Source: Fulvia fulva (Eukaryota; Ascomycota; Dothideomycetes; Mycosphaerellales; Mycosphaerellaceae). Taken from it: a DNA stretch of 64,000 bases. Below the pieces are notes generated by a model that was not told the origin of the DNA, did no database searches, and saw only the letters and a program-made list of their open reading frames with translations. This document shows, piece by piece, positions 3,937-16,342 of the stretch (positions are counted from its first letter, which is position 1; the number at the start of each line of letters is the position of its first letter). Both the position numbers and the translations under genes were made by a program. The stretch covers positions 4,092,001 to 4,156,000 of the forward strand of contig NC_063017.1 of NCBI RefSeq assembly GCF_020509005.1, given 5' to 3'.

Positions 3937-4661
3937 AGGGAAGGTGGTGGATATGTGTACAGATGCGGCATTGGCATGGCGTTCGAGGAGCATGGGAATG
4001 AGATTATACCAGTACAGGAAGATGAGCAGAGGATGAGGTGGGGAGGCTTCGTGCGAAGAGGAGGGTAGAGACCTCCACTGCTGCGAACTGCTAAAGAGCG
4101 TCCAACGATACTGCGGGTCACGAGAGGGCATGGGAAGAGCAGACAGATAAGGAAGGCACACCACACAAAGTCGGCTCTGATCATTGATTACATGTACTCA
4201 CGATGCTCAAGCCTCGAACACGTCACAATGCAAGTGCAAGACCCGTCATACATTCAAGATCTAGCCGGACGGGTTGGGCCTCGCAGCCAGGCATTACGGG
4301 TATGAGCAACAAGTACCACTTGCATTTCATCGGTGCCCCTTGTGCCAGTCTCGCTTTCGAGTAGGGTCGCCTCCGCTGTTCATAGATCAAGCTTACCTGC
4401 GGCTTAGTGCGTGAAGAAAGTAGTGAGAGCGCGCCACGCGCTCACTGCCGCTCTGTTCACACCTCCCTAGCGCGCAAAGCGTGGGCCCCTCTTCTATTTC
4501 TACCTTGCCTGCACTTCTTCTCTTCCAGCTCACCTTCAGACAGTCGGAACCGCTTCCAAGCATCGCGCATTACGACACTCTTGCAATACGCGACTGCCAA
4601 TCATCAACGCACCAAATCCATCTCCAGTCCAGCATCAGCCACTGTGCTACCCATCAGCAGA
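3937..4661. other. Intergenic, no gene seen
   Basis: Holds the 3' flank of the NDUFB3-type gene and the 5' flank and likely pyrimidine-rich 5' UTR (from about 4490) of the next gene. A frame open from 4407 starts with GTG and reads as low-complexity UTR-like sequence, so I did not count it as coding. Confidence 0.4.
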
Positions 4662-8361: not shown

Positions 8362-9666
8362 ATGAGGGTCTTCTGGTTGTGCATTCCAGCTGGCCTGTTG
8401 TGTCAGGGAAGACAGGTACTGCCGAGTCCGATCCAGAGGGCTTCTGTCCAACAAGTCACTTCGAATACCGCGCAAGGACTGGCTGCCTGCACCCAAACAT
8501 GTCTGGAACAATACCCTGGCCCACTCGTCTGTACGCACAAAGCTCTGTTCGACTCCGACATCACCAAATGCGTGCAGACGACCTGCCCTCTTCTGACAGA
8601 CCTGCTCACATGGGAGAACCGCTATGCTGAAGAGTGCGGACTGGAAGCTAGAGATGATGGCGCTAGAGAGCTTGTCATCGCATATGTCTTCTTTGGGATC
8701 TCGACTCTATCTGCAGCAGCTCGCCTGCTTTCGCGCTCTCGCTGGCTCGAGGGCCCTGGATTCTGGTGGGACGATTGGATCATGCTGGCCATGTGGTTCA
8801 TTACCATCGAGATGGCAGTCTGTCCATTTTTCTCTCGCACATATTGGAGCGGACGGGATGTCATTGGCTTCGTCACTGTCCACGACATTGAGCGAGTACT
8901 TATGTGGACCTATGTCAGCGAGCCGTTCTATCTAATCGGCACATTCGGCACGAAGCTGGTGTGGGTGTTCCTGTACCTTCGGATGTGGGAGGCTAATACT
9001 ATGTTTCGAAAGCTTTGCTGGGTTACCGTGGGCCTTTTGGCCGTAGTCATGGTAGGGTACCCCATCGGCGCAATCGTTACTCTCTGGCCGCATCGCTACT
9101 ATATCGGCGAATCAGCCATCGTCCGACAGAACTTCTGGGGAATCGATCTCATCCCTGCGGTAATAGCGATCGGCGTACAGATTGTCCTTTTCGACTTCTG
9201 GACACTTTTACTTCCCATACCCAAGCTCATCAGACTGACTGGCGTTTCAAAGCAACGACGCACAGCAATCTGTGCAGTCATTCTGCTCGGCTTCGTGGTC
9301 ACGGGTTGCAGTATCGTTCGCCTCACCGTCATCCTGCCTCTACAGGATTCACGAAACCCGAACTGGGACTTTGGGCACTTCGGCACCTGGAGCGAAATCG
9401 AGCTGCATCTGTCCATGATCAGCTGTAACCTTCCGGCGATAGCAGGTCTTGTGCATCGTATGATGTTACGACGCCGACGAATGACGAGTATTGGATTCGA
9501 AGACGAGCTCGAGGACTCCGATGGGCGGTCGAAGTCGAGAACACTCACTACTAAGACGGGCCAATCGATTGACATTGAAGAGGGAAGCACTTTCGAGGCC
9601 GAACTGGTGGAAGACGAGAGTGGCAAGATCGTGATGCGGAAGAAGAAGCGCGAACAACCGGGATGA
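8362..9666 (+). CDS. CFEM-like plus fungal rhodopsin-domain seven-helix receptor (PTH11-like)
   Basis: A single 434-residue frame. A short hydrophobic N-terminus (MRVFWLCIPAGLLCQG) may be a signal peptide. A cysteine-rich ectodomain follows, with the spacing CTQTC...VCTHK...KCVQTTC...EECG. This resembles a CFEM module, though I cannot place all eight cysteines confidently. Seven helices follow from about residue 103 (VIAYVFFGISTLSAAARLLS). The family-typical FWWDDWIMLAMW lies after helix 1, and GTWSEIELHLSMISCNLPAI comes before the last helix, matching the fungal integral-membrane rhodopsin domain (PTH11-type). The C-tail is cytosolic and charged. The family includes surface-sensing receptors of plant-associated fungi. 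The ligand is unknown. Confidence 0.87.
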   Translation: MRVFWLCIPAGLLCQGRQVLPSPIQRASVQQVTSNTAQGLAACTQTCLEQYPGPLVCTHKALFDSDITKCVQTTCPLLTDLLTWENRYAEECGLEARDDGARELVIAYVFFGISTLSAAARLLSRSRWLEGPGFWWDDWIMLAMWFITIEMAVCPFFSRTYWSGRDVIGFVTVHDIERVLMWTYVSEPFYLIGTFGTKLVWVFLYLRMWEANTMFRKLCWVTVGLLAVVMVGYPIGAIVTLWPHRYYIGESAIVRQNFWGIDLIPAVIAIGVQIVLFDFWTLLLPIPKLIRLTGVSKQRRTAICAVILLGFVVTGCSIVRLTVILPLQDSRNPNWDFGHFGTWSEIELHLSMISCNLPAIAGLVHRMMLRRRRMTSIGFEDELEDSDGRSKSRTLTTKTGQSIDIEEGSTFEAELVEDESGKIVMRKKKREQPG

Positions 9667-10598
9667 AGCTACCCACGAACTTGGACAACCACCCATGCCA
9701 CACAGGCTGACATGGATTCGAAGCGTTGAAGAATGCATCTCACGATTTTCCGCCATCGGAGATCATACAATCTTGCAATGTCCCATAACCGAGTGTCACT
9801 GTGCGCAGGACTAGCTCGATCGTCGTTTGGACACGAATACGTTCGAGGTTGCGCACCAATACAGTCACCAGGACGAGCTCCACCGCTGGTCACACTGTGT
9901 TGTAAATGCCTACTGCTTCAAGCAGTCGCCCGTGTCTCGGCCTTCCTCGACACTGGATTTACGGTCGGTACATGGAGCACACCACGGCGGCCCAAGCTAT
10001 CAACACGTGTCCGAAGGATGCAGATCTGCGGGACATTGCTTCGGGGAAGGTGGCCAGGGCAGTAGACCAAGATGAAACTTTGGTGCTCAAGGCCGTCGAA
10101 AAGAGCATGCAAGGTTCCCCTTTTCCTGGGCTGAATCAAAGCTCATTGCTTGAAGGGCGCAAGATGCTCGACACGACGAAGGAGGATGCACAGTTCCAAT
10201 GACAGATTCGCTTAGACAAGTCGCACTTCTCTACCAGAATCGACATTATTGTATGTAGATTGTTGTCAAGCATGTCAGTGCTGACATATCAGATGAACCA
10301 GTAACAGCTTAATATTAACTTGACCACGAATACATCTTTGCACTCAACAACAGGGCGCCATCATGACCCACGCCCTCTTTCTCTTCCCGTTCCCACACCT
10401 CATCGCAACTCAAACTCTCACAGCCCGATCCTACGGCATCAATAGCACGATATCCGTGAGGCTGGTTTCAATATCAGTCTGTTATCGCTGCCAGAATACG
10501 GCAGAAAAGCAGGCAGCATAGAGGGCAGACTAGTGCGATCGACATGATTTCACCAAACAATACTCAGTTACACATTGTTTCGCAATGTCTCTCTCCTC
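9667..10598. other. Intergenic, no gene seen
   Basis: Holds the 3' flank of the receptor gene and then about 800 bases in which I find no credible coding frame, no tRNA and no hairpin unit of the kind that starts at 10599. Confidence 0.4.
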
Positions 10599-10759
10599 GA
10601 CGACTCTTTGCCTCGAATGGTGCAGTCAATAAGGTCTCTGGCATGACTTTGAGACTGTAGCTGAGCTCGGACGTGGTCGGCAAAGGACCCAAGTTACCGC
10701 CCTTGGACATTCTCATCGGTCTTCGGTTGCACTTCCAGGCTGCTGGGAGATCATCTTTT
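10599..10759 (+). ncRNA. Hairpin RNA-like unit 1 of the array
   Basis: The 5' arm (from 10599) starts GACGAC and carries AATGGTGCAGTC, an A-box-like core. The 3' arm (10729-10755) pairs with it imperfectly: GATGATCT-type pairing at the base and TGCA at the top. A T4 run follows at 10756-10759 (CATCTTTTCGC). This is one of the weaker units. Confidence 0.42.
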
Positions 10760-10909
10760 CGCATTCGCTGCCGACTGATGTTTCGACTTTTGCCGTTTTC
10801 AACGTGTTGGAGATATGTGCCAAGTTTTCATGTGCCTGGGGATGGGAAAGTGGTCTCTACATCTTCTCGCAGACGCAAATTCCACCTAGATATGCACCCT
10901 ATGACGGAG

Positions 10910-11064
10910 CAGTCTTGACCATCTTGCTGTCTTGAGTGGCGCAGTCGATGCTTAGAGCTGCTTGGCTGATGTACGGCCATGCTGAAGAACCTCTAGAAGT
11001 CAGGGCTTCCGAGAGGTCCATCGGGAGCTCCGTCGCTGTTCGAGTCAGGAGGACTGTGCTCTTT
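10910..11064 (+). ncRNA. Hairpin RNA-like unit 2 of the array
   Basis: CTTGAGTGGC (10931-10940) pairs throughout with GCTGTTCGAG (11035-11044), counting G-U pairs. The A-box-like AGTGGCGCAGTCGATGC continues from the 5' arm, and the B-box-like GTTCGAGTC lies in the 3' arm. CAGTC at 10910 can pair with GACTG at 11052. The end is GTGCTCTTTGC, a weaker T run than in most units. Confidence 0.52.
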
Positions 11065-11224
11065 GCATCTTCTTCTCTTATCATATCGCAGATAGCCGGT
11101 CTGGAGATGCTCGAACAGTAAGAGATTCGAGTGAGAGCACTGATCCAACAGTCTTTGCCCTCTTTTCGTCCACCACAAGGCCATGCCATCACTGTGCTCC
11201 GGCGTATGTTACCGCTATACTTCC

Positions 11225-11397
11225 GTTGGATTCCTGGGCCCTCGAGGATCTTCTTGCCTCACGTAGCGCCATCAACATGATCACCATCATGGTCGAACGA
11301 TACACGCGAAGATCAGCTATCTAATGAAAGGGTGGTAAGTCTTGAACTTGTGAGCAATCTCATCGCTGGTCGTTCGAGCCACGGGGATCGTCTTTTT
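11225..11397 (+). ncRNA. Hairpin RNA-like unit 3 of the array (divergent 5' arm)
   Basis: The 3' half is a textbook copy: CGTTCGAGCCACGGGGATCG at 11371-11390, then TCTTTTTGC with T5 at 11393-11397. The 5' arm (11228-11250) pairs through GGATTCCT and CCTCGAGGA but lacks the usual A-box core, so this copy may be defective. Confidence 0.45.
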
Positions 11398-11528
11398 GCT
11401 CGTCTTCATACATAGCAGTGGTTTCAGTAGTGTACTTAGCCTTTTGTCCAGATCCAGTGCAAGTCTAGCTTTCTACGCGTCTGTTCCGTCGAGGAATGGA
11501 TATGAGCTTGCACGAGATGTCTGCCTTC

Positions 11529-11677
11529 GACGACTTCCACGGCTTGGATGGCGCAGTCAAAGCCAATCACTACGGCTTGACAGCGGCCTGTCACATGAGC
11601 GTTATGTACACGAGTTGCACTCTTCACCTTTCGCTCCTGGACTGGTATCCATCCGAGCCATGGCAATCGTTCTCTTT
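11529..11677 (+). ncRNA. Hairpin RNA-like unit 4 of the array
   Basis: The 5' arm 11531-11551 and 3' arm 11649-11669 pair over about 21 positions with one or two mismatches and several G-U pairs. The A-box-like GGATGGCGCAGTC overlaps the top of the 5' arm, and CATCCGAGCC is the B-box-like partner. It ends GTTCTCTTTGC. Confidence 0.62.
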
Positions 11678-11758
11678 GCGTAGTGTCAGACACTGTTATT
11701 TCTTCGATCAGCTGCCAAGTATGTTGCTTACATCTACCTCCTGACGGTACCACTCCTT

Positions 11759-11913
11759 GACGAGATCCTTGTCCCGAATGGTGCAGTCGTGAAATTGTCC
11801 AAGATGACACTTCGACTGATGCTTCTCCGGGCAAGTCCGTCGGAGGCTTTTCTGGGTCTTATCGCGGGCTTTTTTGGTGAAGATGACCTTTCGAGGCAAG
11901 GGGGTCGTTTTTT
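11759..11913 (+). ncRNA. Hairpin RNA-like unit 5 of the array
   Basis: The 5' arm 11762-11781 pairs with 3' arm 11887-11906 over 20 positions with about four mismatches. The A-box-like core is GAATGGTGCAGTC and the B-box-like core is CTTTCGAGGC. A T6 run at 11908-11913 follows the 3' arm directly. Confidence 0.62.
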
Positions 11914-12033
11914 CGCTTACGACTTTACTTTTGTGCTTCTGTTTTGCCTACGAGGGCATCCATCAGGGGCGTCGTAAGTAAACACTGTGCATCAGTCTCA
12001 AGCTGTATAGATACCCGACAAACACTAACCGTC

Positions 12034-12188
12034 GACGACTATCATGGCTTCAATAGCGCAATCGGAAGACTAACATCTGTCTCTCTGGGGCTAGGACATG
12101 ACACTAACGCGCAGAGCGCTCTAGCGCTTGCTCTCACGCTTGGTGAGCTCCTCTTAGAGCTGTTCGAGCCATGGTGGTCGTCCTTTTT
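12034..12188 (+). ncRNA. Hairpin RNA-like unit 6 of the array
   Basis: The 17-nt arms at 12034-12050 and 12166-12182 pair completely, with four G-U pairs. The A-box-like AATAGCGCAATCGG follows the 5' arm. GTTCGAGCC forms the B-box-like start of the 3' arm, and GTCCTTTTTGC ends the unit. GC-rich internal helices are possible between the arms. Confidence 0.66.
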
Positions 12189-12412
12189 GCATCTTGCTTT
12201 TTGCATCTTGAGCCATAGTGGTCGTCCTTTTTGCGTCTTGCTTTTTGCATCTTGCTTTTTGTATCTTGCTTTTTGCCCCGTATTAGGACTTCTCTTTTAA
12301 CTAGTCTCGGCATCTTGCCTAGATCTACACCCCAAATTCACTGCATCTTGCTTTTTGCATCTTGCTTTTTGCCCCGTGTTAGGACTCCTCCTTTAACCAG
12401 ACTCGGCATCTT
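12183..12412 (+). repeat. T-rich minisatellite with an orphan 3' arm of the hairpin units
   Basis: Repeats of CTTGCTTTTTGCAT run downstream of unit 6. Within them, 12210-12232 is a second copy of a unit 3' arm (GAGCCATAGTGGTCGTCC then T5). Two longer direct copies, each beginning TTTTTGCCCCGT and running through TTAGGACT to CTCGGCATCTT, lie at about 12260-12320 and 12350-12412. The pattern suggests local tandem duplication starting from a unit 3' end. Confidence 0.6.
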
Positions 12413-12452
12413 ATCTAAACATACATGTACGTCCGAAATTCATACTCCTCGA

Positions 12453-12616
12453 CAACAAGCTTGTCCTGAATGGCGCAATCGGTGCGCAGCATTCTTCGCT
12501 GGCTGTATTCGAGTGCATCAACCTGAGCTCGCGAGACCTTCGTAGCTCTCCCCATGAGAGCTCCGGGATTCTTGATGGTGGTCAATGCCATTCGGGACAA
12601 GGTGGTTGTTCATTTT
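12453..12616 (+). ncRNA. Hairpin RNA-like unit 7 of the array (best stem)
   Basis: The 24-nt arms at 12453-12476 and 12587-12610 pair with only three mismatches and one G-U. The 5' arm runs into the A-box-like AATGGCGCAATCGGTGCGC. The 3' arm holds GCCATTCGGGAC. The end is TTCATTTTGC with T4 at 12613-12616. This is the clearest evidence that the two halves were kept complementary. Confidence 0.68.
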
Positions 12617-12789
12617 GCTTTGTTTTGCCGCTTCTGCAGATAACAAGTTCTCGTTAAACACAGAATGGATCGGTGTTGTGGTGTACATGAGCCGGCGCAT
12701 TCATCCTCTTATTGTACCGTCTCTGTAAGTCACTTTTACAACAGAAGCCCCCATCTTACCTGTATAACCAATTTCATATTCTTGTACCG

Positions 12790-12947
12790 TGTCAATCATT
12801 CCGGGTCGAATGGCTCACTCGTCAGCGCGCACACCGGTGCTGGACGGCAAGATGATGGTGCCGGGATGGGCAACACGCAAATTCTTACTTTGTTTTCCCC
12901 ATTCCAGGCGTCGTCAGGCTATTCGAAGCAGGGTGTGTGATCTTTTT
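12790..12947 (+). ncRNA. Hairpin RNA-like unit 8 of the array
   Basis: The core pairing is CCGGGTCGAATGGCT (12801-12815) with GGCTATTCGAAGCAGGG (12917-12933), with bulges. The A-box-like GAATGGCTCACTCGTCAGCG and B-box-like TATTCGAAGC are present. GATCTTTTTGC, with T5 at 12943-12947, ends the unit. Confidence 0.52.
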
Positions 12948-13048
12948 GCAACATGTCATGCGCTATAACCTCATACTTGCAGATTATCTCCTTCTCCCTG
13001 CGTATACGCAGCTGAAGACACATAAGGCCTCTGCAAATGGTATCCGTC

Positions 13049-13214
13049 GACAATAGCTCTGGTCCAAGTGGGTTAGTCAGTAGAGCGTCGGCTCGACCCA
13101 TGTCTGCAGCAGAGGTTGCGTGCGCTGTGGTTTGGACTGTCCCAAATCCGGCTCTCGCGCTTTGGGGTTCATCAAACAGGAACAGGCACTTGGGCCATTG
13201 CAGTTGTCCTTTTT
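13049..13214 (+). ncRNA. Hairpin RNA-like unit 9 of the array
   Basis: The 22-nt arms at 13049-13070 and 13187-13208 pair with three mismatches and two G-U pairs, including an unbroken TGGTCCAAGTG helix. The A-box-like AGTGGGTTAGTCAGTAGAGCG follows. GTCCTTTTTGC ends the unit, with T5 at 13210-13214. Confidence 0.62.
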
Positions 13215-13496
13215 GCTTCGAAATGCGACTTGTTCTACGAGATGAGATCTATTGTCAATCCATAGTCTGACGTCTAGGATTTGGTCAGCAGAATGTGTGC
13301 ATTGGTCTTTGGGAGCTCGTGTTCTTGATCATCAACCATGCGCTGTGCATCTATGCATATATCGTAGCAGAGCCAGCGCGGCTCCAGCGATCTTCGCCCG
13401 AAGTAGTGGTATAGTACATGCTCATTCTTGCACCGCCTGAAGCGCCCTGTGGCGTGCTCTTCGTGTTATGCTCATCTTTCCCACTTTCCCAGCATC

Positions 13497-14779: not shown

Positions 14780-16342
14780 ATGGTTCTCGCAGACCTGGGC
14801 AAGCGCATCAACAGCGCCGTCAATGACCTCACCCGCGGCCAGACCATCGACGAGAAGGCTTTCGATGGCATGGTCAAAGAGGTCTGCAATGCCTTGATGG
14901 AAGCCGATGTCAACATCAAACTCGTCGCCGTCCTACGAAAGACCATTAAGAACGCCGTCAAGTTTAATGAGCTCCCGCCACATGCCAACAAGAAGCGCAT
15001 CATCCAGAAGGCCGTCTTCGATGCCCTCGTCGATATCGTCAACCCACACCAGACGCCATACAACCCGAAGAAGGGGAAGAGCAACGTCATCATGTTCGTT
15101 GGTCTGCAGGGTGCGGGTAAGACGACGACATGTACAAAGTTGGCCAGATGGTATCAGGCGAGAGGCTTCAAGACATGCTTGGTCTGCGCCGACACTTTCC
15201 GTGCTGGTGCTTTCGATCAGTTGAAGCAGAACGCGACCAAGGCCAAGATCCCATACTACGGCTCCCTCACACAGACTGATCCTGTCGTGGTCGCAAGAGA
15301 CGGTGTGGCACAGTTCAAGAAGGAGCGCTTCGAGATCATCATCGTCGATACTTCTGGTCGTCACCACCAGGAAGATGCCCTCTTCGCGGAAATGGTCGAG
15401 ATTCAGGGCGCCGTGCAGCCACATCAGACAATCATGGTTCTCGACGCCTCCATCGGTCAGGCAGCAGAAGCGCAGTCCCGCGCCTTCAAGGAGACCGCAG
15501 ACTTCGGAGCCATCATCATCACCAAAACCGACGGTGCAGCAGCGGGAGGTGGTGCCATCTCCGCAGTCGCAGCAACTCACACTCCCATCGTCTTCATCGG
15601 TACCGGCGAGCACCTCCTCGACCTCGAGAAGTTCAACCCAGAGTCCTTCGTCTCTAAGCTTCTTGGTATGGGTGACATGCAAGGCCTCGTCGAACACGTC
15701 CAAAGCCTGAAACTTGACCAAAAGGAAACCATGAAGAACATCACCGAAGGCAAATTCTCCGTCCGCGACATGCGCGACCAACTTCAGAACATGATGAAAA
15801 TGGGTCCCCTCTCCAAAATGGCCGGCATGATCCCCGGCCTCTCTAACATGATGGGTGGCGTCGACGATGAAGAAGGCGGCATGAAACTCAAGCGTATGAT
15901 CTACATCTGCGACTCCATGACACAAAAGGAACTCGACAGCGACGGCAAAATGTTCAAAGACCAGCCCACCCGCATCACGCGTGTTGCCCGCGGTAGCGGT
16001 ACCTCTGTACGTGAAGTCGAGGAATTGTTATCGCAGCAGCAGATGATGGCGGGCATGGCGAAGAAGATGAAGGGCGGGATGGCCAATATGCAGAAGGCGC
16101 AGGGTGCTATGGGTGGTGCGAACCGCCAGCAGCAGATGGCGGCTATGCAGAAGAGGTTGGCGAGTATGGGTGGAGGTACGGGCGGGGCAGGTGGTATGCC
16201 GGATATCAATGCGATGATGAAGATGATGGGTGGAGGTGGTGGTGGGATGCCGAATTTGGGAGGCATGGATATGAGTAAGATGATGTCTATGCTGGGCGGT
16301 ATGGGTGGTGGTGCTGGTGGTGCGGGTGGTGGGAGGAGGTGA
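14780..16342 (+). CDS. SRP54: Signal recognition particle 54 kDa protein
   Basis: A single 520-residue frame. The N domain (helical, [20 protein letters not shown]) is followed by the G domain: P-loop [10 protein letters not shown] at about 108-117, [31 protein letters not shown] and [14 protein letters not shown]. The M domain from about residue 310 is Met-rich ([20 protein letters not shown]), with the [20 protein letters not shown] helix that binds SRP RNA and signal peptides. The C-terminus is Gly/Met-rich ([15 protein letters not shown]), as in other fungi. It is the GTPase that targets nascent secretory proteins to the ER. It is divergent from the proteasome gene, with about 350 bases between them. 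Confidence 0.96.

Follow-up and report, generated by a model that had tools for sequence, protein, structure and literature searches.

The nine-unit hairpin array of contig C6 of Fulvia fulva is one cluster of a dispersed family of short genes for non-coding RNAs, present in many copies. Covariation shows that the two ends of the units form a terminal stem of about 22 bp, which is maintained while the sequence drifts. That the units form a real family of structured RNA genes is close to certain, given the retention of pairing both within the array and at distant loci.

The window analysed here is a 64-kb stretch (positions 4092001-4156000 of contig C6) in a genome of 67,169,167 bases and 14 contigs. 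As originally noticed, it contains nine units; they lie between a fungal-rhodopsin-domain gene and a proteasome alpha gene. All nine are on the plus strand, are 153-171 nt long and share a common plan, in which the 5' arm runs into TGGCGCAGTC-like letters and is followed by a variable centre, the 3' arm and a T-run. The features of the locus, in window coordinates, are as follows:

8362-9666, plus strand: fungal-rhodopsin-domain gene, one flank of the array
10596-10760, plus strand: unit 1, A-box-like TGGTGCAGTC at 10618, 3' arm and T-run, weakest stem of the nine
10914-11066, plus strand: unit 2, A-box-like TGGCGCAGTC at 10937, GTTCGAGTC at 11038, weak stem
11216-11221, plus strand: TATA-like element, 25 nt upstream of unit 3
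11241-11399, plus strand: unit 3, A-box-like TAGCGCCATC at 11264, 3' arm with a strict B box, fair stem
11526-11679, plus strand: unit 4, A-box-like TGGCGCAGTC at 11549, end CTCTTTGC, strong stem
11757-11916, plus strand: unit 5, A-box-like TGGTGCAGTC at 11779, end TTTTTTCGC, strong stem
12006-12011, plus strand: TATA-like element, 25 nt upstream of unit 6
12031-12190, plus strand: unit 6, strict B box and best stem, pairing at 21 of the 22 positions that face each other; 5' arm at 12034-12055, A-box-like TAGCGCAATC at 12054, 3' arm at 12161-12182, T-run at 12184-12188 followed by GC
12448-12618, plus strand: unit 7, A-box-like TGGCGCAATC at 12471, end ATTTTGC, strong stem
12763-12768, plus strand: TATA-like element, 25 nt upstream of unit 8
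12788-12949, plus strand: unit 8, A-box-like TGGCTCACTC at 12811, end TTTTTGC, weak stem
13046-13216, plus strand: unit 9, A-box-like TGGGTTAGTC at 13069, end TTTTTGC, strong stem with arms altered yet paired
to 14425, minus strand: proteasome alpha subunit gene, the other flank of the array
14780-16342, plus strand: SRP54 gene, next after the proteasome alpha gene

No tRNA cloverleaf was detected anywhere in the 64-kb window by ARAGORN or Rfam, in agreement with the predicted absence of this fold. At gathering score, Rfam returned zero families for the whole window and for five other loci of the hairpin family, and the array alone, searched at E values up to 10, gave a single match, to another family (E 7).

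When the alignment was its sole input, RNAalifold recovered the terminal stem, with 18 pairs, 10 of which show at least one kept two-sided change. Unit 6 served to define 22 stem pairs, one of which has hardly any letters; over the nine units, 83.1% of the cells of these named pairs are paired, compared with 75.2 ± 1.6% in column shuffles. Displacing one arm by 1-3 columns leaves only 32-51% paired, a comparison in which the choice of unit 6 favours the named pairs over the displaced versions. The covariation score of the named pairs is 0.409, compared with 0.265 ± 0.028 after shuffling, and for both measures none of 500 shuffles reached the real value. In an alignment-free arm-swap test, with arm limits set by eye, the duplexes of the units' own arms added up to -190.7 kcal/mol, and 216 of the 362,880 permutations performed at least as well. 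The signal in this test stems from units 3, 4, 5, 6, 7, and 9, for which 2 of 720 re-pairings were equally good. The complementarity that had been described for the array is thus found in part of it: it is strong in units 4, 5, 6, 7, and 9 and fair in unit 3, but weak in units 1, 2, and 8, whose own 3' arms rank last, fifth, and fourth, respectively, among the nine as partners for their own 5' arms. In the window units other than 2, 3, and 6, the TTCGA-like letters differ, and where these units are well paired, the opposite arm has changed together with them.

A covariance model built from the nine window units (R1) retrieved from the window these nine units and the antisense shadows of two of them, the next best match having an E value of 4. 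The genome was screened with sequence-only patterns, and R1 was then run on the stretches fetched around the matches. With up to three mismatches, the 5'-arm pattern TCGACRAYNNYCCTGGNYYNRATGGCGCARTC occurs at 20 places in the genome (3 in the window) and the 3'-arm pattern CCARGGTGRTTGTTCTTTTTGC at 24 (2 in the window), compared with none for the reversed version of either pattern. An earlier version of the 5'-arm pattern had given 10 matches, 4 of them inside the array, vs. 1 for its control, and a gapped pattern yielded 10 rows corresponding to 6 distinct places, also vs. 1 for the control; these places include a weak one at C1:4297879 (L040, E 0.011). On the fetched stretches, R1 found 34 full-length matches at E values up to 0.0005, the nine training units counted, and then 14 more, whereas over 58.7 kb of unrelated loci, used as a negative control, its best E value was 0.38. 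In total, 51 units are listed, of which 48, including the nine training units, have E values of 0.0005 or better; the remaining three (L071 with E 0.0037, L067 with E 0.17, and the second C12 unit) either miss that threshold or are manual additions. Left out of the list are matches shorter than 111 nt (among them a 60-nt partial match, L064:3123-3182), antisense shadows of true units and, besides L040, the weak places L028 (E 0.054), L057 (E 0.045), and L072 (E 0.019). All these figures are minimum numbers: the patterns are narrow, and fetching was confined to the surroundings of their matches.

The listed units occupy 22 stretches on 10 of the 14 contigs (C1, C2, C5, C6, C7, C9, C10, C11, C12, and C13), where they occur singly or in tandem, with one to nine units per stretch. 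The array, the one locus seen initially, is real and belongs to a larger family. Over the 51 units, the stem comprises 19-26 pairs, with a median of 22. The first 33 nt at the 5' end are 0.60 identical within stretches and 0.57 between them (52 rows), indicating that the copies separated from one another long ago and that recent transposition is unlikely.

Pairing of the arms is a property of the family at large. For the 20 places found with the 5' pattern, the best partner within the next 200 nt averages -26.8 kcal/mol, compared with -19.3 kcal/mol when the stretches of the others are used, and for the 24 places of the 3' pattern the corresponding averages are -31.8 and -21.8 kcal/mol. In the re-pairing tests on these two sets, which include 3 and 2 window places, respectively, none of 100,000 re-pairings was as good as the real one. 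Given that the re-pairing partners are homologues with similar arms, this signal exceeds what shared ancestry would produce. A convincing partner arm is present some 100-150 nt away at 17 of the 20 places of the 5' pattern and at 23 of the 24 of the 3' pattern; the three 5'-pattern places without one rank 20th, 16th, and 12th of 20. The arms upstream of those 23 places are of the family type, lie at a distance of 105-149 nt, and mostly begin at or beside CGAC. The same result (0 of 100,000) was obtained with the 34 units found by R1, the nine included, and with the 25 outside the window alone, these sets being somewhat selected for pairing by a structure-aware model. A structure-fitted count gave 89.9% of cells paired over 35 rows, a figure that leans to the structure and would be unsafe as the sole basis for a claim. 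Selection on structure, as initially proposed, is borne out by the RNAalifold stem, by the column shuffles, and by the re-pairing tests inside and outside the window.

The distribution of promoter and terminator signals points to Pol III. A TATA word is present 15-40 nt upstream of 18 of the 27 units outside the window, compared with 80 of 1,671 control stretches, and of 3 of the 9 window units, compared with 18 of 558 control stretches, the words having been picked after inspection of the flanks. Most of them are found at positions -24 to -29. In the U6 snRNA gene of the same genome, a TATATA element lies 28 nt before the U6 match, which makes the first base of the stem, or its immediate vicinity, the likely point where transcription of the hairpin units begins. 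TATA words are also found near 5 of 18 tRNA-family matches and are thus not a unique mark of a U6-type promoter. With respect to the 3' ends, a T4 run terminates 45 of the 51 units (27 of 34 by a second script, which misplaced the 3' arms of units 1, 2, and 8), and in several units another T-run follows at a short distance. The motif T4+(C)GC follows 9 of the 18 distinct tRNA-family matches, as well as U6, compared with 8 of 756 control stretches; the tRNA-family set comprises 22 matches minus 4 exact duplicates, with two near-identical ones retained. Its occurrence behind tRNA and U6 genes makes TTTTTGC look like the Pol III stop of this genome. The units thus share both their TATA spacing and their T-run-GC end with the genome's own U6 gene, whose RNA product is unrelated, and their ends with its tRNA genes, in keeping with the proposed Pol III-type RNA family; judging from these sequence signals, the units are very probably transcribed by Pol III.

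The internal elements fit the original prediction less well. Columns 24-32 of the 34-unit alignment, which hold the A-box-like segment, show high conservation, and the combination of a TATA element with an A box some 24 nt inside recalls the layout of yeast SNR6. The 3' arm had also been described as usually holding a B-box-like sequence, but the strict consensus GWTCRANNC was found by script in only 3 of the 34 units, among them window units 3 and 6, and detection by eye in unit 2, one of the three window units whose 3' arms the script had misplaced (1, 2, and 8), brings the number to 4; TATA words at a set upstream distance are commoner, being present in 30 of the 51 listed units. With strict B boxes so rare, the postulated vault-type internal promoter made of A and B boxes fails.

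The nine window units have a mean stem energy of -23.9 kcal/mol, compared with -31.5 kcal/mol for the 25 outside units. Because their stems are weaker, with units 1, 2, and 8 poorly paired, and TATA words are rarer among them, the window array may be a partly decaying branch of the family.

Several explanations that dispense with a maintained RNA gene were considered and rejected on account of arm covariation, TATA and T-run placement, and the scarcity of B boxes, which last also counts against the vault-type promoter. A decaying, tRNA-derived SINE-like repeat spread by retroposition, as had been suggested, would account for the A-box-like sequence, the T-runs, and the many dispersed copies. 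It is nevertheless very improbable: when the array region (10500-13400) was compared with the genome at the DNA level, only the region itself and one low-complexity match (L002) came up, flanking duplications are not in excess (2 of 52 vs. 23 of 1,040 controls), the arms covary, and 18 of 27 units have a TATA word external to the presumed transcript, which a retroposed SINE would leave behind. Dispersed copies, the expected sign of an ordinary transposed repeat, do exist, but these divergent copies retain complementary arms. Inverted repeats of about 20-25 bp at the ends of a non-coding unit of 130-170 bp are also what a MITE would display, the arms then being the terminal inverted repeats of a DNA transposon. 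This explanation is slightly less probable still, as the terminal repeats of one family would share their sequence, whereas the arms vary between copies and are paired within each copy; moreover, the units are asymmetric, with the TATA element on one side and the T-run on the other, and flanking matches of 6 or more, at the same frequency as above, reveal no excess of target-site duplications. Least probable of all is a TFIIIC-binding or boundary DNA element of the ETC type, devoid of an RNA product. The arrays do contain A-box-like and some B-box-like words, but the script finds strict B boxes in a small minority of units, pairing is retained where the B-box letters are lost, and a T-run and a TATA element at set distances would have no evident use in the absence of a transcript.

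For a transcribed hairpin, the function might be that of a precursor of small RNAs. In this proposal the units are Pol III hairpin-RNA genes whose ends pair into the terminal stem of about 22 bp, and Dicer would measure from the open end of that stem and so supply Argonaute with a released duplex of about 22 nt, as may also occur with the primary transcript of milR-1 in Neurospora; this is the least certain step. The closest parallel is milR-1 of Neurospora crassa, whose primary transcript is described as a Pol III product of about 170 nt that depends on TATA-like elements both for the binding of Pol III and for its transcription; in the text of the same study, a T-run immediately follows the small-RNA sequence in milR-1 to -4 (PMC3547838). 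The hairpin units resemble milR-1 in length, in the apparent use of TATA, and in the T-run directly after the 3' arm. They differ from it in having a conserved A-box-like segment, milR-1 being presented in that text without a predicted A or B box, although the legend of its Figure 2 mentions putative A and B boxes within the set of milR-1 to -4 (PMC3547838). A further difference is that at least 48 related units, single or arrayed, occur at many loci in F. fulva. The genome encodes RNAi proteins, with Piwi domains at 6 places and the Dicer-dimerisation domain at 2, and the suggestion of microRNA-like precursors is accordingly a live option. It is favoured because size, TATA, and T-run match milR-1, the stem corresponds to about one Dicer product, and Piwi and Dicer domains are present. 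On this analysis, there is about an even chance that the units are Dicer-fed precursors, and the same holds for the entire chain from a Pol III hairpin family to Dicer-made small RNAs.

Slightly behind, and nearly as likely, comes a stable Pol III scaffold RNA, in which the stem and the TGGCGCAGTC segment would bind a protein and the variable centres would give each copy its role, in the manner of Y or vault RNAs but with a different protein partner; it is a tentative proposal, somewhat under an even chance. The Y and vault RNAs share a plan of paired ends, variable centre, and oligo-U end that resembles the hairpin units, and metazoan Y RNAs and nematode stem-bulge RNAs are Pol III transcripts with an end-paired stem, a variable loop, and an oligo-U end. 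A scaffold function would agree with the conservation pattern, as the outer TCGAC of the stem ends and the inner ATGGCGCAGTC of the A-box-like segment (alignment columns 2-6 and 24-32) are among the most conserved letters of the 34 units. It would also agree with the long centres being mildly structured, as they fold slightly better than shuffles (mean z -1.8 over the 34 units, with the 3' arm misplaced in three). Against it, Y RNAs less typically have near-perfect stems with no conserved bulge, and the Ro60 (TROVE) profile gave no match in the F. fulva genome, the same search being positive in 1 of 14 control genomes (Deinobacterium). The vault protein domain was not matched in the genome either, but none of the 14 control genomes gave a match, and this search is uninformative. 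Vault RNAs carry A-box- and B-box-like words close to their paired ends; unlike them, the F. fulva units are B-box-poor, have TATA upstream, and yield no Rfam match. Y RNAs are given a span of 84-112 nt in the text of one account (PMC8973356), compared with 130-170 nt for the units, for which neither a Ro60 homologue nor an Rfam match was found.

The hairpin family is apparently undescribed. Literature searches, whose coverage of subscription papers was limited, retrieved no description of it. The main text of a re-analysis of fungal hairpin small RNAs does not mention fulva, Cladosporium, or Dothideomycetes (PMC9757828), the 15 fungal RNA motifs of another study are of other kinds, judged by their names (PMC5640933), and the terms tRNA, non-coding RNA, and ncRNA are all absent from the main text of the genome paper of Cladosporium fulvum (Fulvia fulva) (PMC9453070). 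The units might thus represent a new fungal class of Pol III RNA, made up of dozens of fast-drifting genes, solitary or tandem, with a U6-like promoter, a terminal stem of fixed length, and a conserved A-box-like segment, that serve as scaffolds or as a source of small RNAs, differ from every RNA family described so far, and whose birth and death would generate a lineage-specific repertoire, a view that may be held with somewhat less than even confidence. With at least 48 related units and arm covariation inside one genome, the family would show with unusual clarity how selection acts on hairpin structure in a fungus. If the units do not feed Dicer, they would represent a scaffold RNA without a known partner; if they do, they would offer a ready system for studying the origin and diversification of Pol III hairpin loci.

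Behind unit 6, one of the nine hairpin-RNA units of the array in the window, the sequence is repetitive. A word like CATCTTGCTTTTTG recurs there in short copies set in tandem, and longer pieces are duplicated as well:

12166-12425, whole repetitive stretch, with the tandem copies and the duplications below
12207-12237, second copy of the end of the 3' arm of unit 6
12246-12329 and 12342-12425, direct repeat of 84 nt, the copies 87% alike

Elsewhere in the genome, hairpin units present on both strands adjoin an inverted repeat of 29 nt (L038:4198-4226 and 4301-4329), which is perfect as judged by eye.

Six tRNA-family matches of 115 nt each (stretches L015-L020, on contigs C1, C2, C4, C5, C9, and C12) have an identical score of 41.9 bits, and their 45-nt flanks, as printed, are the same in all six; they represent a tRNA-like repeat dispersed in the genome. 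On contig C13 (119170-120167), two adjacent pieces match the Piwi domain, one of them with a TGA stop in it, and this split match is perhaps a broken Argonaute copy or reflects an intron.

Some hairpin units have, 45-130 nt upstream, a word resembling an E box, which is spelled CACATG, CATGTG, or CACGTG and sometimes GATCACATGC. Of 27 units that lie outside the window, 11 have it, as compared with 132 of 1,672 control stretches; inside the window it precedes one of nine units, as compared with 35 of 558 controls. This word, exemplified by stretches L036, L038, L039, and L065, is a possible upstream control element of the units.
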